From Chloroflexota bacterium (GTDB taxonomy: Bacteria; Chloroflexota; UBA11872): a stretch of 64,000 nucleotides of DNA. This document shows positions 3,970-63,094 of the stretch, piece by piece; the first letter of the stretch is position 1; the number at the start of each line of letters is the position of its first letter. Both the position numbers and the translations under genes were made by a program. The stretch spans positions 1 through 64,000 of the forward strand of contig JAPOWQ010000066.1 of assembly GCA_026707585.1 (NCBI GenBank), given 5' to 3'. The notes beneath the pieces were generated by a model. That model had not been told where the DNA came from, did no database searches, and worked only from the letters and a program-made list of their open reading frames with translations.

Positions 3970-4292
3970 GGTGCGCGGAAGACCCCTCACCGATTTCGGC
4001 CGAAGACGGCCGATTCTGCCTCTCCCCTCGGAGAGGGTGAAGAGCGGCGTGGGCCGGAGGGAAAGGCTATCGCCCGAGGCAGAGTGCTAGGGCTGGCAGC
4101 CACCCTCACCCCCGGATCGAGTCCGGGGCAGGCTCTGCCCTCCCCTCAAGGGCGAGGGTAAGAACGGCGGCCCCGGGAGTGGGATGCGTAAGGGCACTGG
4201 TGGTGTGGGATGTGGGGTGCGCGGAAGACCCTCACCCCAGCCCTCTCCCACGGGGAGAGGGGGCAAGAGCCGCCCTTCCTTCGAAGACGAGG
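3970..4292. repeat. cluster of three dispersed-repeat modules
   Basis: The 380-base gap 3915-4296 holds no gene. It carries three modules of the family recurring through the window. Module one (about 3970-4049) begins gtgcgcggaagacccctcacc and has a cggccg-aaga-cggccg core. Module two (about 4098-4165) has ccctcacccccgg and a gggcgaggg end. Module three (about 4213-4292) has gtgcgcggaagaccctcac and a ctctccc/gggagagg hairpin. No clear terminal inverted repeat or target duplication is visible here, so these look like decayed or partial copies. It separates the convergent DegT and AAC(3)-like genes. Confidence 0.7.
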
Positions 4293-8837: not shown

Positions 8838-9935
8838 ATGAGCTTCAGGATCGGGATCATCGGACATACCGGCCGGGGCAACTACGGCCACAGCCTGGAC
8901 ATGGCCTTCGTGGGCGTCGAGGGTGCCGAGATCGTGGCCCTGGCCGACCCAGATGACGAAGGGCGAGCGGAAGCCGCCGCCCGCACCGGCGCCGCCACGG
9001 CGTACGCGGACTACCGCGAGATGTTGGATAGGGAAAAGCTCGACATCGCCGTGGTGGCTTCGTCAGAAGTCGGCGACCACCGCGAGCTCGTTGTAACGGC
9101 GGCCGAGACGAGAGCCAACATCTACCTGGAGAAACCGGTAGCTGCCGCACCGGAGGATGTTGACGCGATGATGGCAGCTTGCGACCGGTCCTCGGTGCTG
9201 TGCGTGGTCGCCCACCCGTGGCGGGGCCATCCGCCGATCCAGCGAGTGGCGATCGACCTGATCAGGTCCGGCAAGATCGGCGAGCCGAGGCTCGCACGGA
9301 TCTATGGCAAGGGGGGCGAGCACGGAGGCGATCCGCTGTTCCTTGACCTGTATCCCCACTTCTTCGATTTCCTGTGGCAGCTCTTTGGCGCCCCGCTGTG
9401 GTGTCACGCGCATCTGACCCAGGACGGCCGCACCTGCGAGCCCGCCGACCTCAAGCCCGGATGGACTGGCGTAGGGCTCGTCGCCGGTAATGGGATTAAG
9501 GCCTACTACTGTTTCGAGGGAGGCTTCGCGGCGGAATACGAATCGTACCGGGGCGACGGCATCGAGACCCCGTATCGCCTCGACATCCACGGCACTGCGG
9601 GCACGCTGTCGCTACCAGGGCCGATGGGGAGAGGACCGGACATCTTCTTTCATCCGCTGGCGAATCCTGGACTCATCGGCGACGACCGCTGGGAGGTCAT
9701 CCCCTCAGAGCCGCCGCCGGATCAGCATAAGTGGGTGAACGCGCATCGGCGCATGGCCAGGTCCATGATGGACATGCTCGAGGGTAAGGCGCCGGAATGG
9801 GAGTTGGTGCAACTTCCCGACGCGAAGCGCCACCTGGAAATGGCCATGCTGGCCCACGCGTCACATATGCAAGGGGCGCGAGTGTCCCCGCCGTTGCCAG
9901 ACGGTAAGAACCCCTTCGACCATTGGACGGCGTAG
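8838..9935 (+). CDS. Gfo/Idh/MocA-family dehydrogenase
   Basis: This 365-residue protein opens with the Rossmann motif GIIGHTGRGNYGHS and has the canonical EKPVAA Lys motif near residue 99. It then has a C-terminal domain with LFLDLYPHFFDFLWQLFG, where the His is in the usual catalytic position. It is transcribed divergently from the family member at 7550-8683, and the two may share control from the 154-base gap. The gap contains acgggttaccggta and ggttcaaccggta, near-repeats that could be operator half-sites. Substrate unknown. Confidence 0.9.
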   Translation: MSFRIGIIGHTGRGNYGHSLDMAFVGVEGAEIVALADPDDEGRAEAAARTGAATAYADYREMLDREKLDIAVVASSEVGDHRELVVTAAETRANIYLEKPVAAAPEDVDAMMAACDRSSVLCVVAHPWRGHPPIQRVAIDLIRSGKIGEPRLARIYGKGGEHGGDPLFLDLYPHFFDFLWQLFGAPLWCHAHLTQDGRTCEPADLKPGWTGVGLVAGNGIKAYYCFEGGFAAEYESYRGDGIETPYRLDIHGTAGTLSLPGPMGRGPDIFFHPLANPGLIGDDRWEVIPSEPPPDQHKWVNAHRRMARSMMDMLEGKAPEWELVQLPDAKRHLEMAMLAHASHMQGARVSPPLPDGKNPFDHWTA

Positions 9936-10097
9936 ATCGGTAAACCGCCACTGGCGGACCCCAACGCCCCTTGCGCCGGGTCCGTAGCGTGGATAGCGAC
10001 GGCCACCGGCAGGCCGGATAGCCAGATGGCCCTGCGATCCTCCTGGCTTTCGACACCACGCATTACGTGGCGTTGCCGTGCCCGCTGACTCCCTAGG

Positions 10098-10220
10098 GAG
10101 ACCTTTGCGTAACCCTGGGAATGGGTGCCCGGAAGACCCTCACCCCAACCCTCTCCCGGAGGTAGAGGGAGAAAGAGCGGCCCGGCTTTCGAAGTCGAGG
10201 CGGGGTTTCGCAAAGGTCTC
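10098..10220. mobile_element. MITE-like element, copy 1 (123 bp)
   Basis: The left end is GAGACCTTTGCGTAACCC, and the right end is its inverted match with about two differences (…GGGTTTCGCAAAGGTCTC). The centre holds gtgcccggaagaccctcacc and a ctctccc/gggagagg-type hairpin. CTAGG is duplicated on both sides (10093-10097 and 10221-10225), as expected of a transposition target duplication. It carries no ORF, so it must have been mobilised in trans. The right target copy contains the stop codon of the GH32 gene. Confidence 0.82.
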
Positions 10221-11681
10221 CTAGGCGTGTACCGGGACACTCTCCGTTCCATCCCAGATGGCAGCGAGTTCCCAGACGTCCAGCGAGGTCAGGCCTGGCT
10301 GGCCAATGACGTCGAAGGTCGCACTCGGGCGTGCTTTGCGGCTAAAGACGTGCAGCCCCAGGCTGTCGGACCGCGTCGGGTAGATGCGGCTGGTCGCAGC
10401 CCGTCCGTGCGCAAATACCTCGAGGACCGAAGCGTCCAGGAATACGTGCAGGCGCAGCGGCGTGTGCGGCGGCCGGTGCAGCGGCCCTCCGCTGTTTGGG
10501 CGATCGGTCGACAGATCGAGGGATGACTGCTCGCAGTCGATCGTGAGCCGGTCGTCCGCGAAGTTGTATTCGATCCGCGTCTCCTCCACGCCGTCCGGGG
10601 AGCGCCGCACGGCCAGACCGACCGTGCCGTTTGGCGCGGGCGTGAACTCGGCCACGATCTCGAGTTGCGCACCCGCCACGCCCTGGATCTGGTGGGTCGA
10701 GTCGTGCGCAAGCGCGATGGCGCCAACCGCGTGGTGCGCACGTCGTAGTGCGCGCACTTCGGGCGCCGGCTCGGAGGTGAGCCGTCCGTTCGAGTCGAGG
10801 CCCATCACACGCGGCAACGACATCAGGCCGGACCAGCCGGCCTCGGCCTGCGCTGCGCGCGTCCGCCCCTCGCGGATCCATCCCCAGGCGAGGCGCCGGC
10901 CCTGCGAATCGAGCAGGGTTTGCGGGGCCGCGTAGTGCGCCCCAAGGTCAACACGGCCCCGGAATTCGCCGTGGTACCGGTGGTCGTCATACGAGCCGAC
11001 GAAGTACGGAAACCACCATTCCGGATGCGCATGCACCATCAGCACGTGCTGGTCACCCAGCGGGAAGAATTCAGGGACTTCCCACATCGAGCCGGTCAGG
11101 TTGGCGTCGCCCGTGCACATCAACCCCAGGTACTCCCAGCGCACCAGGTCCGGCGACCGATAGAGGGGCAGGGCGCCGCCGACGCCTCGAACGCCGCAGC
11201 CGATCACCTGGTACCAGGCATCGTCGTCCCGCCACGCGCAGTGGTCGCGCCAGCCCGGCACCTCCAGTCCCTCCGGAGGCGCCGGGATGACCGGATTAGC
11301 GGGGTGCTTGGTCCACGTGAGCAAGTCGTCGTCGCTGGTGGCGATGCAGGCCTTCTGTGGCATCACGCCGGTGTAGATCAGCGTCGGCACGCCAGCGTGA
11401 TCCACGGCGCAGCCGGAGTAGCACCCGGTCGGATCGGCTCCGCCGGGGGTCGGCGCCAGCGCAATGGGCAGGTGCTCCCAGTGCACCAGATCGTCGCTGA
11501 CCGCGTGCCCCCAATGCGCGCCGGGCAAGGTCGCCCCCTGGTTGGGAAGCCCGGAGAACATTCCCGGCGAAAACTGGTAGAAGAGGTGGAAGCGTCCGGC
11601 CCACTGAATGAGCCCGTTGGGGTCGTTCATCCAGTCCGATGGCGGCAGAAAGTGGTAGCGCGGCCGTTGCGGATCGCTCAT
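10221..11681 (-). CDS. GH32 beta-fructosidase (levanase/invertase type)
   Basis: The three GH32 signatures are present. WMNDPNG holds the nucleophile (Asp20), WRDHCAW keeps the Arg-Asp of the RDP motif with Pro changed to His, and WEVPEFF keeps the acid/base Glu of the EC motif with Cys changed to Val. The catalytic five-bladed propeller is followed by a C-terminal beta-sandwich with VFLDASVLEVFAHG. No signal peptide is seen, so fructans or sucrose-like oligosaccharides would be cut in the cytoplasm. Start 11681 (MSDPQRPRYHF) is preferred; an upstream in-frame start at 11741 is possible. A MITE-like element abuts its stop codon. Confidence 0.92.
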   Translation of the reverse strand: MSDPQRPRYHFLPPSDWMNDPNGLIQWAGRFHLFYQFSPGMFSGLPNQGATLPGAHWGHAVSDDLVHWEHLPIALAPTPGGADPTGCYSGCAVDHAGVPTLIYTGVMPQKACIATSDDDLLTWTKHPANPVIPAPPEGLEVPGWRDHCAWRDDDAWYQVIGCGVRGVGGALPLYRSPDLVRWEYLGLMCTGDANLTGSMWEVPEFFPLGDQHVLMVHAHPEWWFPYFVGSYDDHRYHGEFRGRVDLGAHYAAPQTLLDSQGRRLAWGWIREGRTRAAQAEAGWSGLMSLPRVMGLDSNGRLTSEPAPEVRALRRAHHAVGAIALAHDSTHQIQGVAGAQLEIVAEFTPAPNGTVGLAVRRSPDGVEETRIEYNFADDRLTIDCEQSSLDLSTDRPNSGGPLHRPPHTPLRLHVFLDASVLEVFAHGRAATSRIYPTRSDSLGLHVFSRKARPSATFDVIGQPGLTSLDVWELAAIWDGTESVPVHA

Positions 11682-11891
11682 CGAACTCCATCCATTTGCC
11701 CCGTGCCGTGCAGCAGCGTCGGGGCTGATCGGCAGCGCCACGCGCCCGACCGGCCGAACGAACCTGGGCGGGCAGCTCCCGAGCTTCGCTCGGACGGCGC
11801 GCGCTCCACCGGGATCGGGGACGACAACTGCGACTGCTCAGGGAGATTGATCTTTAGAGAACCTGATTGTTAGGATTCAAATCATTCTAGC

Positions 11892-11909
11892 TGCACCCTT
11901 CCGGGTGCA
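11892..11909. promoter_or_regulatory. hairpin before the ABC binding-protein gene
   Basis: A perfect 7-bp inverted repeat TGCACCC-ttcc-GGGTGCA lies 28 bases before the ATG of the substrate-binding lipoprotein. It could be an operator, an mRNA leader hairpin or a weak terminator; no T-run follows it. Confidence 0.35.
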
Positions 11910-11936
11910 CGGTTCGAAGGCTGTATGGAGGTTGCT

Positions 11937-13433
11937 ATGCGTCGAATGCTGACTAGACGCCAGGCACTGATCGTGGCTGGTGGGACGGCGCTGGGAGCTA
12001 CGGCTGGGATCGCGCTGGCCGCTTGCGGTGAGGCCGAGGTCGCCGAGACCCCCGCCGAGCCGGCGCCAGCCACAGCGGCCCCGGCCGCGACACCGGCCCC
12101 GGCCGTTGAGGTCCAGCCACAGCAGAAGGCCGTGGAAATCGAGTTCGTGCACGACCACGTCTCCGGACCGCGCGGCGAAGCGATGCGGTGGGGGCTCGCA
12201 AACTTTGCGAGCCAGTTCCCTGAAATCAATGTCCGGTTCGTCGTTCAACCGGCTGACTTCGAAGATTCGTTCGCCATCCAGCAGGCCGCCAATTCGCAGG
12301 GCGAGGTCGCCTTGCTTAGTGGGGCCTTCTTCATGTCGTGGGTAGAAGGTGGGGCCTTCACACAAATCAACGACGCCTTGAGCAAGAACCCTCGATATGA
12401 CGCGAGTGCCCAATTCTTTGGGCCTGACGCGTACTCAATAAACTTCTGGAATCGAATTCCGTCGTCGCACCTCGAGCCAATCTCAGGTCCGACATTCGGT
12501 CTGCCCTACCAGGGCAACATGATTGGCTACTTTTTCAACGTCGACATGATGACCAAGGCGGGCATCGAGTTTCCCACCGCAGGCCAGTGGGGGATCGAGA
12601 CGGAATACCTTGAGGCGTTGCAGAAGGGCACTGATCCCGAAATCGGTCAGTGGGGTACGCGAGGGTTAACCGGTGCGTGGCCCCACGGCCTGTTCCTGCC
12701 GCTGGCGCTGTCGGATCGGGACGACCTCATGCCCGTGTACAACAGCGATGCCACGCGCTTCGAGGCCTACGACGAAGGCGGGGATCGAGGCCTGCAGTTC
12801 ATCATTGACATGGCCCGCACACACAAGGTCTCTTACCCGCCCGGGGACTACCGAGAGATCGCGGGCGAGTTCGGCGACCCGTTCTCGGCCGGCAAGCAGA
12901 TGATCTGGAATGCCGGCGGTGCGGTGGGCACCCTGGCAAACCGGATCAAAGACAGGTTTGAGTGGTCAATGGGTCCGATTCCGGAAGGCAGAACGGGTGA
13001 GCCGCATCCGAACAACTTCGACGGACAGCCGCATTTGATCACCAACACTGCGCAACGTCGGGGCACGGTCGAGCAGGCGGTCGAACTCATCAATTTCTTC
13101 GTCGGGCCGGGAGTTCAGGGACGCATCGCCATCGATCGTGGGTCCCTCCCCTACAACAAGGAGGCGATCGCCTCAGCCGAGATGGCGGCGGGGCCGCCGG
13201 CGAACCACAGTCTGTGGAACGACCAGGCGCAGCGCACCGATCACCGACATCTGCAGTGGGCGCACCCCAATTGGAGTGAGATGTGGCCGATTTTCAGGTG
13301 GGACAAGACCTTTCTTGGTGAGGAGACGGTAGAAGAAGGCCGCATAAGGGTGACCACCGAGGCGGACAGATTCCTTGAGAGGAACCACGAGAACTGGGAG
13401 TCGCTCAAGCGATATGCGGAGGCGGCCTCCTGA
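11937..13433 (+). CDS. ABC-transporter sugar-type substrate-binding lipoprotein (family 1)
   Basis: This 498-residue extracellular solute-binding protein has a Tat-like TRRQALIVAGG signal and a lipobox ending LAAC (Cys30). An Ala/Pro/Thr linker follows to about residue 62, then a two-lobed binding fold. Typical features are PTFGLPYQGNMIGYFFNVDMM and the hinge region FSAGKQMIWNAGGA. ATG 11937 is chosen because GGAGG lies 5 nt upstream. It should capture a carbohydrate outside the membrane. No permease or ATPase gene is in the window, so it is an orphan and must use partners elsewhere. Confidence 0.88.
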   Translation: MRRMLTRRQALIVAGGTALGATAGIALAACGEAEVAETPAEPAPATAAPAATPAPAVEVQPQQKAVEIEFVHDHVSGPRGEAMRWGLANFASQFPEINVRFVVQPADFEDSFAIQQAANSQGEVALLSGAFFMSWVEGGAFTQINDALSKNPRYDASAQFFGPDAYSINFWNRIPSSHLEPISGPTFGLPYQGNMIGYFFNVDMMTKAGIEFPTAGQWGIETEYLEALQKGTDPEIGQWGTRGLTGAWPHGLFLPLALSDRDDLMPVYNSDATRFEAYDEGGDRGLQFIIDMARTHKVSYPPGDYREIAGEFGDPFSAGKQMIWNAGGAVGTLANRIKDRFEWSMGPIPEGRTGEPHPNNFDGQPHLITNTAQRRGTVEQAVELINFFVGPGVQGRIAIDRGSLPYNKEAIASAEMAAGPPANHSLWNDQAQRTDHRHLQWAHPNWSEMWPIFRWDKTFLGEETVEEGRIRVTTEADRFLERNHENWESLKRYAEAAS

Positions 13434-13466
13434 CAAGCTAGACGCGCTAGCGCCACGGAAGCGCCA

Positions 13467-13524
13467 TGAGAGCCTCCTCTCGGTTGGGCCGGTCGATTCC
13501 ACCCGCCGAGTCTGGAGGCTCTCA
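13467..13524. terminator. long-stem inverted repeat after the binding-protein gene
   Basis: TGAGAGCCTCC (13467-13477) is repeated in inverse as GGAGGCTCTCA (13514-13524), a perfect 11-bp stem around a 36-base loop, 34 bases after the stop codon. There is no T-run, so it may protect the transcript 3' end rather than act as an intrinsic terminator. Confidence 0.4.
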
Positions 13525-13605
13525 GCTGTTACCAAGGCTCATGGGAAGGACGTCCAGGGACTGCCGGAATGGCCCAGGCGCCGCAAAGGCGCGGGGGTCG
13601 TGGTG

Positions 13606-13785
13606 ATGAAGTGGCTGCACTTCTTTGACTATCGCGAGCTGAAGCACCTGGACGGCTTTGTGCGGGCGGTGGAGTCGCCGGTGAAGCATTCGGATGCGCC
13701 ATTGCTGACGCCAGACCTGCCGCGGGAGCACGGCAACAACCGGCTGTCGGGCAGCGTGGTCCTGGCGGTGAAGTGGGGTCACTAA
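13606..13785 (+). pseudogene. truncated propeller protein, third copy (N-terminal fragment)
   Basis: The frame from ATG 13606 encodes MKWLHFFDYRELKHLDGF, then VESPVKHSDAPLLTPDLP and REHGNNRLSGSV. This aligns with residues 1 to about 50 of the 465-468-residue propeller proteins at 5283 and 14876. It then runs into VLAVKWGH and a stop. About 90 percent of the gene is missing. It lies 1.1 kb before the intact copy 2, in the same direction, and looks like a duplicate cut short by deletion. Confidence 0.75.
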
Positions 13786-13849
13786 CTCACTTCCATACAC
13801 TTGACCTCGCGGATTCCCACCAGGCAGGCCAACCGAGAGCAGGATTCAC

Positions 13850-14381
13850 ATGGCCGTGGACAGAAGCGACAAGTACCGCCAGATGGTGCTCCGTGGCAAG
13901 TATCAGCGGTTGTACTCCTACCTGCACAGACTTGAGGCCCAGGAGTGGAGGGCCTCTTTTGGCGAGGTCGAGGCAGTTGTTGGATTCCAACTGCCGCCGT
14001 CCGCGCGACTCCACCGCCCCTGGTGGAGACCTTTGCGTAACCCCAGGCTGGTTGCCCGGAAGACCCTCACCCCAACCCTCTCCCACGGGGAGAGGGAGCA
14101 AGAGCGGCCCCGATTTCGAAGTCGAGGCGGGGTTTTGCAGAGGTCTCTGGTGGGGAAACCAGAAGCGCAGCAACGGACATAGGCACGCGCTGGCGTGGAG
14201 TGTCGCGGGATGGGAGACGGCGGAGGTCGACATGGATGCGGAGACGCTGCTGTTCCGGCGAAGGCACCCCAGGCCCGCAGCCAGGCCTTCGCTCGACGAG
14301 GCATGGCCGGTGCATCCAACCGCTTCGTGGCCGGAGGGCCTGAGCCTCAGGCGAGAGGACCTCTACGAGGAGCGGGTCTAG
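13850..14381 (+). pseudogene. DUF7662-like gene with antitoxin-like tail, split by a MITE
   Basis: Frame 13850-14025 encodes KYQRLYSYLHRLEAQEW, FGEVEAVVGFQLPPSARLHR and PWW. After the inserted element, frame 14153-14381 resumes with GNQKRSNGHRHALAWSVAGW and ETAEVDMDAETLLFRR. Removing 14026-14152 (element plus one TGGTG) joins them in frame as one 134-residue protein with the family layout …LPPSAR-H-WW-N…AW-AGW…V.F.R. I recall this as the DUF7662 pattern. The last 40 residues end WPEGLSLRREDLYEERV, resembling the C-terminal toxin-binding tail of some antitoxins, and a PIN toxin starts 9 nt later. Now frameshifted and presumably dead. Confidence 0.78.
14026..14147. mobile_element. MITE-like element, copy 2 (122 bp), inside a gene
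   Basis: The left end GAGACCTTTGCGTAACCCC and right end GGGGTTTTGCAGAGGTCTC are inverted matches. The 5-bp target TGGTG is duplicated at 14021-14025 and 14148-14152. The core carries ggttgcccggaagaccctcac and a ctctcccacggggagaggg hairpin. It interrupts the gene at 13850-14381 at codons for Trp-Trp, which fixes both element ends to the base. Confidence 0.9.
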
Positions 14382-14389
14382 CCGCCGCC

Positions 14390-14812
14390 ATGTTTATCGA
14401 CACCAACGTGCTGGTGAATTCCCGCATTCCCGGCGCGCCGGACCACGACGCCGCCCGGGCAAGGCTGGAGCGCGCATTTCGCGACCCTGAGCCGCTGAGA
14501 ATCAGCCGGCAGGTCATACGCGAGTACCTGTCCGTGGTCACTCGTCCGCAGACCTGGCCGGCGGGTATTACCCGGGAGGATGCCCTGTACGACGTGGGCA
14601 GGCTGATTCGCAGCTTCGAGATTCTTGAGGATGGCCCGCGGGTTACCGAGTCGCTGGTGGGCCTGTGCCGCGAAGTGCCTGTTGGCGGTCGGCAGATTCA
14701 CGACGCCAACATCGTGGCGACAATGCTCGCCCACGGCGAACGCCGGCTGCTGACGTTCAACGGCGCGGACTTTCGCCCGTACGGTGACCGCATCGAGTTG
14801 GTGGACGCTTAG
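14390..14812 (+). CDS. PIN-domain ribonuclease, VapC-like toxin
   Basis: This 140-residue PIN protein starts MFIDTNVLVNSR with catalytic Asp4. Further acidic residues lie in REYLSVVTR (Glu), IHDANIVATML (Asp) and LLTFNGADF (Asp). PIN toxins cleave RNA and are held inactive by an antitoxin encoded just upstream. The upstream gene 9 nt away is split by a mobile element, although its C-terminal RREDLYEERV segment is still encoded in frame up to the junction. The toxin frame is intact, so either it is poorly expressed or another antitoxin covers it. Confidence 0.85.
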   Translation: MFIDTNVLVNSRIPGAPDHDAARARLERAFRDPEPLRISRQVIREYLSVVTRPQTWPAGITREDALYDVGRLIRSFEILEDGPRVTESLVGLCREVPVGGRQIHDANIVATMLAHGERRLLTFNGADFRPYGDRIELVDA

Positions 14813-14875
14813 GCGAACGCGAGGGGCCGTAAGCTCGAAGTCTGTCGGGGTTGCGAGGCGGCTGGAGTGGTGGCG

Positions 14876-16273
14876 ATGAAGAAGCTGCTGTTTCTTGACT
14901 ATCGAGAGTTGGAGTTCGTGGCGGGCTTTACGCGGGCGGTGGAGCCGCCGGTGAAGCATCCGGGTGGGCCGCTGATGCGGCCGGACCTGCCGTGGGAGCA
15001 CGGGAACATGCAGCTGTACGGCAGCGTGCTGCGGGCGTCGGACGGGCGGTTTCGGGCCTGGTACGAGGTGTGCGTGCCGCCGTTCACGACCCGGCTGGCC
15101 TACGCGGAGAGCGACGATGGGCTGACCTGGCGCAAGCCGGAGCTGGACACCTTCAGCCAGGACGGGCAGCGAACGAATGTCGTGTTCGACGCGGAGCAGA
15201 CCAGTCCGGCCCTGATCGAGGACCGGGAGGACCCGCGGCCGGACGGGCGGTACAAGATGCTGATGGGCGCCGAGCCATCCCGGTGCATTGCCGCAATGCA
15301 CAGCGCGGACGGCATCCACTGGAAGCCCGTGCGCACGCTGGTGGGGCGGATCCATCCGGTGATTACGACGAATCCGGACTGCCCGATCGGCTTCCTGCGG
15401 GCGCCGGACGGGCGGTTTGCGGCGTATCACCGCATGGACGGGTACGGGCGACGGGTGTTCCGAAGCGAGTCGTGGGACTTTGCGCATTGGTCGGGCGAGC
15501 CGCGCATGGTGCTGGAGCCGGATGCCGGCGACTCGCCGCAGACGCAGTTCTACGGACTGGGGGCCTGCGCCTACGGTCCGTACGAAGTGGGCACGCTGTG
15601 GATCTACGCCACCGATCCGGACGACCGGGGGCGGCACAAGATGCGGGGGTTGCAGACGCCGGAGCTGGCGTATGCACGGGCGGGGACGGCATGGCACCGA
15701 GCCGAGCAGGGCACCGCGTTCATTCCGAACGGCGCGCCTGGCGAGTGGGACTCGGGCAATTTGCAGCCAGCCTCGCAGCCGGTGTTCCTGGAGGACGAGA
15801 TTCGCTACTACTACGCGGGAACGAACGCGCGGCACGCCATGCGCTGGGAGGTGGAGCCGCAGACGGCCGGGCTGGGCCTGGCGCGATTGAAGCCGGACCG
15901 GTTTGTGGCGCTGCGGGCGGGTGAGGCGCCGGCAGAATTGGGCACGATTACCTTCAAGCCGCGTTCGGCGGACGTGTTCGTGAACGCGCGGACGGCGGAC
16001 GATGGCGAGATTCGGGTGGAGTTGCAGGACGCGGAGGCGCGGCCGCTGGCGGGGTTTACCGCGGGAGACTGCCGGCCGATCAACGGAGACTCCACGGCGC
16101 ACCGGGTGGAGTGGCGGGGCGATGGGCAGGCCGACGCGCCGGTGGGGCGGCCGACGCGGATGCGGCTGACGGCGCGGCGGGCCAGCGTGTACTCGGTGTT
16201 CGTGATAGAGCGGGGTGAGACGCCGGTGTATCACCAGTTCGAGGCGCTGCGGCCGGAGAACGAGGCCTGGTAG
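14876..16273 (+). CDS. five-bladed beta-propeller glycosidase-like protein (copy 2)
   Basis: This 465-residue close paralogue of the protein at 5283 begins MKKLLFLDYRELEFVAGF, and long blocks such as FRSESWDFAHWSGEP are identical. The same C-terminal beta domain is present (SADVFVNARTADDG). ATG 14876 is preferred over GTG 14867 because it matches copy 1. Both intact copies keep PWEHGNMQ, AYAES-DGL-W and HSADG-HW motifs, so both are probably functional. A composite MITE-like element begins at the base following TA of its TAG stop codon. Cytoplasmic; substrate unknown. Confidence 0.78.
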   Translation: MKKLLFLDYRELEFVAGFTRAVEPPVKHPGGPLMRPDLPWEHGNMQLYGSVLRASDGRFRAWYEVCVPPFTTRLAYAESDDGLTWRKPELDTFSQDGQRTNVVFDAEQTSPALIEDREDPRPDGRYKMLMGAEPSRCIAAMHSADGIHWKPVRTLVGRIHPVITTNPDCPIGFLRAPDGRFAAYHRMDGYGRRVFRSESWDFAHWSGEPRMVLEPDAGDSPQTQFYGLGACAYGPYEVGTLWIYATDPDDRGRHKMRGLQTPELAYARAGTAWHRAEQGTAFIPNGAPGEWDSGNLQPASQPVFLEDEIRYYYAGTNARHAMRWEVEPQTAGLGLARLKPDRFVALRAGEAPAELGTITFKPRSADVFVNARTADDGEIRVELQDAEARPLAGFTAGDCRPINGDSTAHRVEWRGDGQADAPVGRPTRMRLTARRASVYSVFVIERGETPVYHQFEALRPENEAW

Positions 16274-16514
16274 AGACCTTTGCGTAACCCGAAGCCGGGT
16301 GCCCGGAAGACCCTCACCCCAACCCTCTCCCAGAGGGAGAGGGAGAAAGAGCGGCCCCGCTTTCAAAGCCGAGGCGGGGTTTCGCAAGGGTCTCAGGAGA
16401 GGGGAAAGACCGGCCTCCCCTTGAGTGAATTGACACCGAACACCGTTGCTAGCCCCCGGCATGGCGAGAGGGCGTCCGCGAGTTCGAGGACCAAGGGAGT
16501 CTCGCAAGGGTCTC
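16273..16514. mobile_element. composite MITE-like element, copy 3 (242 bp)
   Basis: The left end is GAGACCTTTGCGTAACCC at 16273. There are two right ends: an inner one at 16389-16394 (GGTCTC, giving a 122-bp unit) and an outer one at 16509-16514. The 6-mer CTGGTA directly flanks the outer unit (16267-16272 and 16515-16520), so the longer form was probably the inserted one. Its extra half contains ccttgagtgaattgacaccg, related to the composite at 29174-29439. The target includes the TAG stop of the propeller gene. With flanks this accounts for the 364 bases between that gene and the sulfatase-like gene. Confidence 0.75.
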
Positions 16515-16637
16515 CTGGTAGGGAAACCGGATGCCCCGCACGGAGGCTCAGTCTCCGGGTACGTCACTATGCTGGCCCCGCGCGATCAATCCCGTCTGGC
16601 GCGCCCGGCCACGGTGACCCGGAAGGCGAGCATCGCC

Positions 16638-18152
16638 ATGGACAAGCTGAACATCGTCGTTATCTGCATCGACACGTTTCGCGCCGACATCGTGGGTCCG
16701 GGCAAGAAGCTCAGCGGTGTGGCGACTCCGGCGCTGGATGGGCTGGCGGCGGAGTCGGTGCGCTTCAACCGCTGCTTCACCGAGCCCGGTCCGACGCTGC
16801 AGGTGCGTAACGGCTGCTTCACCGGGATGCGGGGGTTTCCGTATCAGGACGGGTACTACGGGTGGCACAAGATTCCCGATGAGCAGCCGACTATCGCCGA
16901 GATCCTGCTGGCGGAGGGCTACGCCACCGGGCTGATCGGCGACACGCCGCATCTCTTCAAGCCCAACATGAACTATTCCCGCGGATTCATATCGTGGGAG
17001 CACATCCGGGGCGCCGGGGGCGATGGGTGGCGCACGGGGTCGTGGGATCAGATCCGCGAGATCTTCAAGGACTACTTCGGGGCGTACGAGCCGGCCGTGC
17101 CCGAGGCATCGGCGTCGTCGCTGCACGGCGAGAGCGCCTTTCTGCAGCACCTGCACAACGCGCGGGACCGACGTGACGAAGCGGACTGGCCGGGAGCGCA
17201 GGTGTTTGCCTCGGCGCGACGCTGGGTGCGCGAGAACGCGCGAAACGCGCCGTTCTTCCTGTGGGTCGACTGCTTCGAGCCGCATGAGGTGTTCGATCCG
17301 CCGATCGACTACGTGCGGCCATACAACGACTGGTGGCAGGGCCCCAAATACCAGCAGCCGCGCCACATCCTGCACCCATCGTTTTCGTCGAACATGCAGG
17401 GGGCGGACCTGCAGGTCACGTCAAACGAATTCATCGACTACTACACGGCCTGCTACAAGGGCGAGATCACGTTCACGGATCGGCACGTCGGGTTGCTGCT
17501 GGAGGACTTGCAGACGCTGGGGCTGATGGACGACACGGTGGTGATCTTCTTTACGGACCACGGCACCGAGCTGGCGGATCACACCGGGTGGGGGAAGCGC
17601 GAGACGGAGCTGCATCCCTTCAACACGCAGCAGAATCTGACCATCCGGTACCCGGACCCTGGCTATCGCGACCGCGACGTCGGCGCCTGGGTGCAGAACT
17701 ACGACCTGGGGCCAACGATCCTGGATTTGGCGGGGATCGGGTCGGCCGGCGAGTCAATGGACGGAGCGAGCGTCTGGTCGCTGGTGACCGGGGAGCAGGC
17801 GGCGATCCGGCCGTACAGCACCACGGCCTGGGCCGGCCGGGTGGCGATTCGGGACAAGCGCTGGGTCTATGCGACGGGGTGGGACTTTGAGGATCCCACG
17901 CCTGAGTTGTATGACCTCATGTCCGACCCGGAGGAGCTTCAGAACGTGCACGCCGATCAGCCGGATGTCGTGGGGGAGATGCGCGCCCGGGTCGAGGGGC
18001 TGCTGGGCACGCCGATCCCGCAGCCCTACTCGCAGGATCGATTCGACGCCACGGACGGGTACCACCACCGGCCGCTGTACTCCTCGTCGTACGCCCCGGT
18101 GTTTTACAGCGCGCGGCGGCGGTTGGAGGATCCGAAGGCGCTGCCGGGCTAG
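16638..18152 (+). CDS. sulfatase-superfamily hydrolase with Thr at the formylglycine position
   Basis: This 504-residue alkaline-phosphatase/sulfatase-fold protein has a first metal motif VVICIDTFRAD (Asp12) and a later metal motif FFTDHGTELADHTGWGKRE, with WVDCFEPHEVFDPP between them. In true sulfatases a C/S-x-P-x-R motif supplies formylglycine. Here the aligned segment is PTLQVRNGCFTGM, with Thr53 at the Cys/Ser position and Arg57 retained. Thr is the nucleophile in related phosphodiesterases and phosphotransferases, so sulfate-ester cleavage is doubtful. ATG 16638 follows GGAAGG at about 11 nt. No signal peptide, so cytoplasmic. Confidence 0.85.
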   Translation: MDKLNIVVICIDTFRADIVGPGKKLSGVATPALDGLAAESVRFNRCFTEPGPTLQVRNGCFTGMRGFPYQDGYYGWHKIPDEQPTIAEILLAEGYATGLIGDTPHLFKPNMNYSRGFISWEHIRGAGGDGWRTGSWDQIREIFKDYFGAYEPAVPEASASSLHGESAFLQHLHNARDRRDEADWPGAQVFASARRWVRENARNAPFFLWVDCFEPHEVFDPPIDYVRPYNDWWQGPKYQQPRHILHPSFSSNMQGADLQVTSNEFIDYYTACYKGEITFTDRHVGLLLEDLQTLGLMDDTVVIFFTDHGTELADHTGWGKRETELHPFNTQQNLTIRYPDPGYRDRDVGAWVQNYDLGPTILDLAGIGSAGESMDGASVWSLVTGEQAAIRPYSTTAWAGRVAIRDKRWVYATGWDFEDPTPELYDLMSDPEELQNVHADQPDVVGEMRARVEGLLGTPIPQPYSQDRFDATDGYHHRPLYSSSYAPVFYSARRRLEDPKALPG

Positions 18153-29173: not shown

Positions 29174-29439
29174 CGAGACCGTTGCATAGCTCAGAGCTGG
29201 TTGCCCGGAAGACCCTCACCCCAGCCATCTCCCAGAGGAGGCCTTCGCGTAACCCGAGCTTGGTTGCCCGGAAGACCCCTCACCGAATTCGGCCGAAGAC
29301 GGCCGAGTCTGCCTCTCCCCTTGGAGAGGGTGAAGAACGGCGTCCCCTTGAATGGGTTGACATCGAACACCGTTGCGCTCCGCCGGGGCAGGAGGAGGAG
29401 CGGCCGCAGCTTCGAGGACGCCGGGCGTGTTGCAGAGGG
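29174..29439. mobile_element. composite MITE-like element before sbcD
   Basis: It begins GAGACC at 29175. It holds two nested units (ggttgcccggaagacc at about 29200 and again at about 29264, the second preceded by a decayed ggccttcgcgtaaccc end) and finishes gttgcagaggg. The direct repeat CGCTCATG flanks it (29166-29173 and 29440-29447). Its extra half (ccttgaatgggttgacatcg) matches the composite at 16273-16514. The left repeat contains the ATG of sbcD. It fills most of the 378-base gap between sbcD and the isochorismatase-like gene. Confidence 0.7.
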
Positions 29440-29550
29440 CGCTCATGGCTGGCAATTGGGCAGGTTCGAAGGGGTGCCAAGAATACCAAACAAAAAGCGA
29501 ACACGGGCGCGAGCGTATGCTCGCCCTGATCGCATCCGAGGACTGACCCC

Positions 29551-46550: not shown

Positions 46551-46917
46551 TCTCCGGGGTCGCCGGGATTACGGCGTTCCCGGATCAACAACTGCCGGCG
46601 GTCTCGCGCCACGGAGCCTCCCCTTTTACGCCTGGGGCCCAAGAACGCGCGCTACAGACGAGAACGTAGCCGCATTGTACACGCGGAGGCCGACCGTTGA
46701 ATGCGGGGGCGTGCGTCCCTTTGAGCCCTGGGTGCTCGGAAGACTTCTCACTCCAACCCTCGCTCCTGTGCAGACCGGGAACATTATCTGCACGCGTTCG
46801 GAGACATGGTTTACACGTGCGGCGATAGGGTGGCGGACCGGGATGTGCCGTTGCGGAGCCCCGGTGGGGTGGTCGGCAGGGGCCCGTGCTCCCCACCGGC
46901 CGGGCGTGGCGCCTCCC
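46551..46917. other. gap between LysM and PBP genes, no gene
   Basis: No supported gene is seen in 366 bases. It carries a decayed copy of the dispersed repeat (see 46728-46770) and otherwise featureless GC-rich sequence. It presumably holds the LysM gene promoter near its left end and the PBP transcript 3' end near its right end. Confidence 0.35.
46728..46770. repeat. decayed dispersed-repeat module
   Basis: Sequence gggtgctcggaagacttctcactccaaccctc matches the family core gtgcgcggaagaccctcaccccaaccctc with several changes. It has lost the hairpin and any inverted ends, so it looks like an old copy. Confidence 0.55.
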
Positions 46918-63013: not shown

Positions 63014-63094
63014 TTGGGTGCGCGGAAGACCCCTCACCCCAACCCTCTCCCCCAGGAGAGGGAGGAAGACGGCTGCCTGCTTCGAAGTGCGGGG
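63014..63094. repeat. dispersed-repeat module beside parS
   Basis: Contains gggtgcgcggaagacccctc and accccaaccctctccc with a ctctcccccaggagagg hairpin, then cgaagtgcgggg. This is the family core without inverted ends or target duplication. It ends about 40 bases before the parS site. Confidence 0.65.

Follow-up and report, generated by a model that had tools for sequence, protein, structure and literature searches.

The stretch of DNA analysed here (the window) covers 64,000 nucleotides of contig JAPOWQ010000066.1 from a Chloroflexota bacterium, whose group is probably associated with marine sponges, judging from the isolate names of related MAGs. It contains three short plus-strand elements with the ends GAGACCTTTGCG...CGCAAAGGTCTC, located at 10098-10220, 14026-14147 and 16273-16514. 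Their positions and their flanking duplications, CTAGG, TGGTG and CTGGTA, are exactly those given in the initial annotation of this DNA. The first element is a complete copy of 123 bp, with TIRs at 10098-10109 and 10209-10220 and a BoxC core that starts at 10137. It is supported by the genome search and by the duplication test. The CTAGG repeats occupy 10093-10097 and 10221-10225, and the target is present as a single copy in the sister genome G011. A minus-strand gene at 10221-11741, which we take to encode a family 32 glycoside hydrolase from its MNDPNG motif, has its TAG stop codon within the right-hand repeat.

The second element, a complete copy of 122 bp with its BoxC core starting at 14064, is likewise supported by genome search and duplication test and folds into a single long hairpin. 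Exact TGGTG repeats flank it at 14021-14025 and 14148-14152. This copy interrupts a plus-strand DUF7662 gene (134 aa; 13850-14381) that is intact in G011 (L183:4640-5044); the element and its duplication add 127 bases, which shifts the reading frame. Immediately 3' of the interrupted gene lies a PIN-domain gene (PF01850; 14375-14809), and the two might constitute a toxin-antitoxin-like pair.

The third element is a 242-bp composite flanked by exact CTGGTA repeats at 16267-16272 and 16515-16520. The composite had been recorded before; its precise structure is a complete MITE (16273-16394) fused to an older copy of which the right half (16395-16514) is left. A new copy probably inserted into the loop of the older one, whose left half was lost later. 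The left CTGGTA, followed by G, preserves the TAG stop codon of the gene at 14867-16273. At both the 10098 and the 16273 insertion, the stop codon of the adjacent gene lies inside the duplicated target, and both reading frames are intact.

Further traces of the family occur on the plus strand of the window. The BoxC core at 10137-10174 has the form CCCTCACCC-CAA-CCCTCTCCC-loop-GAGGGAG, with one imperfect arm; identical cores begin at 14064 and 16311. Cores without ends had been listed at 3970, 46728 and 63014. The intact cores lacking recognisable TIRs are instead at 4229-4266 and 63031-63070, whereas 3970-4050 is a variant module in which another hairpin interrupts the triplex core, and 46728-46766 is a decayed fragment truncated at 46767, where the end of a different insertion sequence begins. 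The earlier count of at least three copies holds, but it overlooked decayed nested copies at 29175-29440 (right limit approximate), in which a TIR-like end at 29175 and a BoxC core at 29213 are accompanied by a second TIR-like end at 29238, within the hairpin loop. No Rfam match to positions 9000-18000 was found at E up to 1. Separately, L001:4290-4360 contains two closely spaced copies of a short GC-rich hairpin, TAGGGGCGCCCCTTGTGGGTGCCC, which looks like a further dispersed repeat.

Copies, target duplications and empty sites

Across the 3.92-Mb genome (75 contigs), a search for the 12-base end GAGACCTTTGCG gives 22 occurrences, as compared to one for a reversed-pattern control. When the 123-bp copy is used as the query, 52 places are recovered; 19 cover all 123 bases, and 4 more are nearly full. 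In this genome the family comprises 19 full copies plus dozens of partial ones; the elements measure 120-124 bp and contain no transposase. The family is found in 12 of the 13 genomes of the genus, this one included, and its ends are conserved throughout the genome as well as across the genus.

Over all the loci analysed, and with nested mispairings counted, 37 of 199 candidate end pairs are bordered by exact direct repeats 5 bp or more in length; approximately 2.8 would be expected from shuffled flanks. Among the pairs with an exact duplication, 14 have repeats of 5 bp and 20 have repeats of 6 bp. There are also MITE copies with no duplication, which is what one would expect if they are old or recombined. 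To look for empty sites, the two flanks of seven insertions were joined around a single target sequence and searched across the genus. In G011 all three window sites are uninterrupted and the target is present only once at each (for 10098, at L176/L183); an empty site at 14026 is seen in six sister genomes. The sites at C23:11897 and C60:61349 are contiguous and empty in several more genomes, with drifted target bases; the C23 empty site is less exact than that at C60. The element is short and has shared ends, target duplications above chance and empty sites; it is a MITE of an IS5-family element, which bears out the initial view that the ends define a movable unit. All the checks suggested in the initial annotation gave favourable results.

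The partner insertion sequence

The window itself holds no matching transposase, as first noted, and all transposase relatives lie on other contigs. The full-length element that the initial annotation proposed to look for, with matching ends and a transposase gene, is a 1193-bp insertion sequence (IS) at G000:C68:1335-2527. Its intact gene encodes a 325-aa DDE transposase that matches NF033581.1 (E 4e-86, 288.8 bits, cut-off 140), placing it in the IS5 family; it carries the Pfam domains DUF772 and DDE_Tnp_1 and falls below the cut-off of the IS1182 model. Residues D144, D226, R273, E277 and K284, which make up the DDE triad and the R-3-E-6-K signature of the IS5 family, are invariant in the seven proteins aligned. 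The two ends of the IS are unlike each other, and both are retained by the MITE: the IS right end is identical to the MITE left end over 15 of 15 bases (GAGACCTTTGCGTAA), and the IS left end agrees with the MITE right end at 17 of 18.

Duplications in the clade of the C68 IS and the MITE are 5-6 bp long; those of the described IS5 subgroups are 2-4 or 8-9 bp. Two relatives of the C68 IS have 6-bp duplications that coincide with hairpin loops. At L074:162-1352 the duplication CTCAAG is the loop of a BoxC hairpin (CCCTCTCC-CTCAAG-GGAGAGGG), and at L079:1347-2536 the duplication CCTTCG is that of another hairpin (TTCCCG-CCTTCG-CGGGAA). For ISPg elements, a range of 2-9 bp has been reported (PMC4596501).

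A clear duplication was looked for at the flanks of the intact C68 IS and was not found. A decayed neighbour has only the imperfect repeat CCACGA/CCATGA, and two other IS copies in the genome are broken. Because the intact copy has no duplication of its own, we infer its activity rather than observe it. The MITE very probably owes its movement to a full-length relative located elsewhere in this genome. A 2.4-kb stretch on contig C7 between two ends was also considered as an autonomous element and was rejected, as it contains an oxidoreductase gene and separate MITE copies.

BoxC as cargo and as landing site

Knowledge of the widespread BoxC repeats dates back to the 1990s. The core CCCTCACCC-CAA-CCCTCTCCC-nnn-GGGAGAGGG fits the BoxC/PIT/TMECO consensus when read as its reverse complement, and reading the copies at 14064 and 16311 against the published consensus confirms the agreement. 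The repeats of unrelated genomes to which the core had been likened are BoxC, an identification that goes beyond the initial annotation, as does the finding below that insertions favour BoxC. Allowing up to 3 mismatches, a search with one core gave 118 sites (control, 0). A TIR lies near 51 of 108 BoxC cores in the genome, as compared to 1.2% for a shuffled TIR, at distances that are mostly fixed (38 bases on the left, 72-73 on the right). The other 57 have no recognisable TIR. Some of these carry the MITE inner flank CGGAAGA and look like decayed MITE copies; others form a class with a different flank, GGCAGCCA. The second BoxC class, which lacks GAGACC ends and has a conserved left flank (CACCGAGGCAGCCA-BoxC-TCAA), was seen at L052, L252, L265, L271, L275 and other loci, and it too is hit by MITE insertions. 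The E. coli motif forms an intrastrand triplex in vitro, and a 2015 study described BoxC as widespread and of unclear origin, with transposase remnants never found nearby (PMC4666352).

BoxC hairpin loops are preferred by the element as insertion sites. They host 9 of 36 duplication-verified insertions. In this genome, a BoxC arm lies within 16 nt of 36 of 104 TIR ends, whereas randomly chosen positions are this close to one in 1.7% of cases within those loci and in 0.3% within the window. The wider set gives a similar picture, with 95 of 327 unique ends (29%) at a BoxC arm versus 2.2% of control positions. This preference leads to nested copies, and nested chains are present, for instance, at L014, L048, L006 and window position 29175. 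More weakly, the element also prefers an ATTCYCG hairpin repeat (ATTCCCGC-loop-GCGGGAAT), which hosts 6 of 327 ends of the IS clade (control, 0.16%) at L079:1335-1346, L199, L219, L080 and L077. The perfect hairpins at L079 and L223, together with the BoxC targets, agree with insertion into loops. However, a general rule of insertion into any hairpin loop was dropped, because targets other than BoxC, taken as a group, do not exceed shuffled flanks in palindromy (mean stem 3.67 versus 3.56). For this reason, we claim only the preference for BoxC and the weaker one for ATTCYCG.

An unrelated IS481-family element (NF033577; 1264 bp, ends TGTGCRGACCGGGGACAT) also inserts mostly into BoxC hairpin loops. 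At least 9 of its 12 recognised ends adjoin a BoxC hairpin, and one complete copy, at L293:1501-2764 (G000:C30:174667-175930), is flanked by the duplication GTGGG. The insertion sequence end at window position 46767 is one of 11 further ends of this type. BoxC is a landing site common to two unrelated IS families, IS5 and IS481.

A search of 84,980 species genomes for the combined pattern of end plus BoxC returned 67 stretches, nearly all from Chloroflexota MAGs; the remainder are single Nitrospirales, Omnitrophota and Gemmatimonadetes matches plus unnamed MAGs, and viral contigs gave none. In several Chloroflexota species (L223, L219, L185 and L194), the TIR and BoxC are separated by quite different linkers, and at L223 the duplication is again a loop (CCCCG-CCTTCG-CGGGG). 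The right end was sought within 420 bases at the Nitrospirales (L193) and Omnitrophota (L222) loci and was not found. A 60-base query bearing BoxC matches 5,342 of 5,426 E. coli genomes (E up to 10), and at the four E. coli BoxC loci examined, ends with GAGACCTTTGC were not found. The proposal that all BoxC repeats derive from MITEs with these ends was rejected, since the combined pattern is nearly confined to one group of Chloroflexota MAGs and the four E. coli loci lack the ends; because of the latter, our finding covers BoxC mobility in this clade, not everywhere. One E. coli sequence, NZ_CP169399.1 (L283:288-420), has two inverted BoxC copies between GTGCGCGC and GCGCGCAC, which are possibly the ends of another composite repeat.

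Proposed mechanism and known systems

The matching ends, target duplications, empty sites, intact transposase gene with its catalytic residues and excess of ends at BoxC loops allow us to propose a mechanism. IS5-family transposases would recognise ends beginning with GAGACCTTTGC and mobilise the MITE in trans, the likely partner in this genome being the 1193-bp IS at G000:C68:1335-2527. The transposase would cut the target with a stagger of 5-6 bp, and gap repair would generate the duplications. Loops of BoxC-type hairpins would be preferred, probably through recognition of the extruded hairpin or of its sequence. With a BoxC hairpin inside the MITE, every copy would become a new landing pad, and nesting in older copies would be more frequent than chance, so that genes would sometimes be spared. 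We hold this explanation as a whole, with mobilisation in trans, a preference for BoxC loops and self-made landing pads, with high confidence. The parts of it that we infer are the role of the C68 transposase as the mover, its present activity and the recognition of structure, not sequence, at the target.

The strongest alternative concerns the cargo. BoxC could have been resident for longer and act solely as a target, and the MITE could have gained it when IS ends came to flank a BoxC copy by chance, with no role in mobility. TIR-less BoxC copies with other flanks exist, such as the ...GGCAGCCA-BoxC-TCAA class; almost every E. coli genome contains BoxC-like sequence, with none of these ends at the four loci examined; and the IS481-family element uses BoxC loops as well. 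The combination of TIR and BoxC with different linkers in several Chloroflexota species argues against this alternative, as it suggests repeated origin or retention. We give it slightly less than an even chance; it is compatible with the main mechanism, from which it departs only in what the cargo does. It is improbable that the mover is a transposase from a different IS family that has been lost or is encoded on an unassembled contig. The missing duplication at the intact C68 IS and an assembly that is 95.6% complete would allow for it, but the MITE and IS ends agree over 15-18 bases per side and the IS relatives give the same 6-bp duplications, whereas the cousin ISs of these genomes, about 40% identical (L084 and L091), differ in their ends, GAAACCTCTGA, and in their 4-bp CTAG-type duplications. 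Spread as REP/BIME-like palindromes, driven by gene conversion or a RAYT (Y1) transposase and with ends that merely resemble TIRs, would suit the high copy number, the core hairpin, the mostly intergenic location and the roughly half of BoxC cores without a TIR, but we find it scarcely credible. For TIR-bearing copies it is refuted: single-strand transposition of the RAYT type leaves no target duplication, and these copies have exact 5-6 bp duplications, clean empty sites and ends shared with a DDE element. The refutation does not extend to TIR-less BoxC copies.

Returning to the preferred mechanism of MITE mobilisation by an IS5-family transposase, a broader version can be envisaged in which BoxC hairpins are a structural landing pad common to unrelated transposases, here of the IS5 and IS481 families, and short elements with BoxC between IS ends profit from it by landing in each other. 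We regard this extension as rather unlikely. If it is true, cycles of capture and nesting, involving other ISs in other phyla, would explain how BoxC is scattered over many bacteria without visible transposase remnants.

Several known systems resemble parts of this one. BrickBuilt and MITEPgRS of Porphyromonas gingivalis and ATR of Neisseria meningitidis are MITEs of the IS5-family elements ISPg1/ISPg9 and ISNme1 (PMC4596501). They share with the present MITE the terminal repeat GAGACCTTTGCA, an IS5-family partner and the lack of an internal transposase, and filled and empty sites are known for the P. gingivalis MITEs (PMC4596501). Their interiors, however, are unrelated (a minisatellite or an AT-rich repeat), with no BoxC core reported, and the published BrickBuilt duplications of 2-5 bases differ from the constant 5-6 bp seen here (PMC4596501). 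Classic IS5 elements with CTAR targets, represented by the cousins L084 and L091 of the same clade, share with the C68 IS an IS5-family DDE transposase but not its ends or duplication length. The BoxC/PIT/TMECO motif is dispersed and intergenic, and the reverse complement of our core fits its formula of three G/C-rich blocks, CCCTCNCCC-N3-6-GGGNGAGGG-N3-GGGNGAGGG (PMC4666352). For E. coli BoxC, the authors found no transposon association (PMC4666352), in contrast to the present BoxC, which lies inside a MITE with target duplications. The REP-targeting elements IS1397, ISKpn1, ISPsy8, ISPa11, ISPpu9/10 and ISRm22 likewise insert into a repeated palindrome, on its symmetry axis or close to it, and REP targeting is known in five IS families, including IS5 (PMC1525189). 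They have not been described as carriers of the palindrome that they target (PMC1525189), whereas the present non-autonomous element carries its own. It is a natural example of a transposon that carries its preferred target, and part of its insertions consequently hit its own kind rather than genes. A MITE of an IS5-family element is a known type; BoxC cargo together with BoxC-loop targeting is new. BoxC is demonstrably transposon-borne here, which offers a concrete, testable route for its dispersal and for the reported instability linked to the motif.
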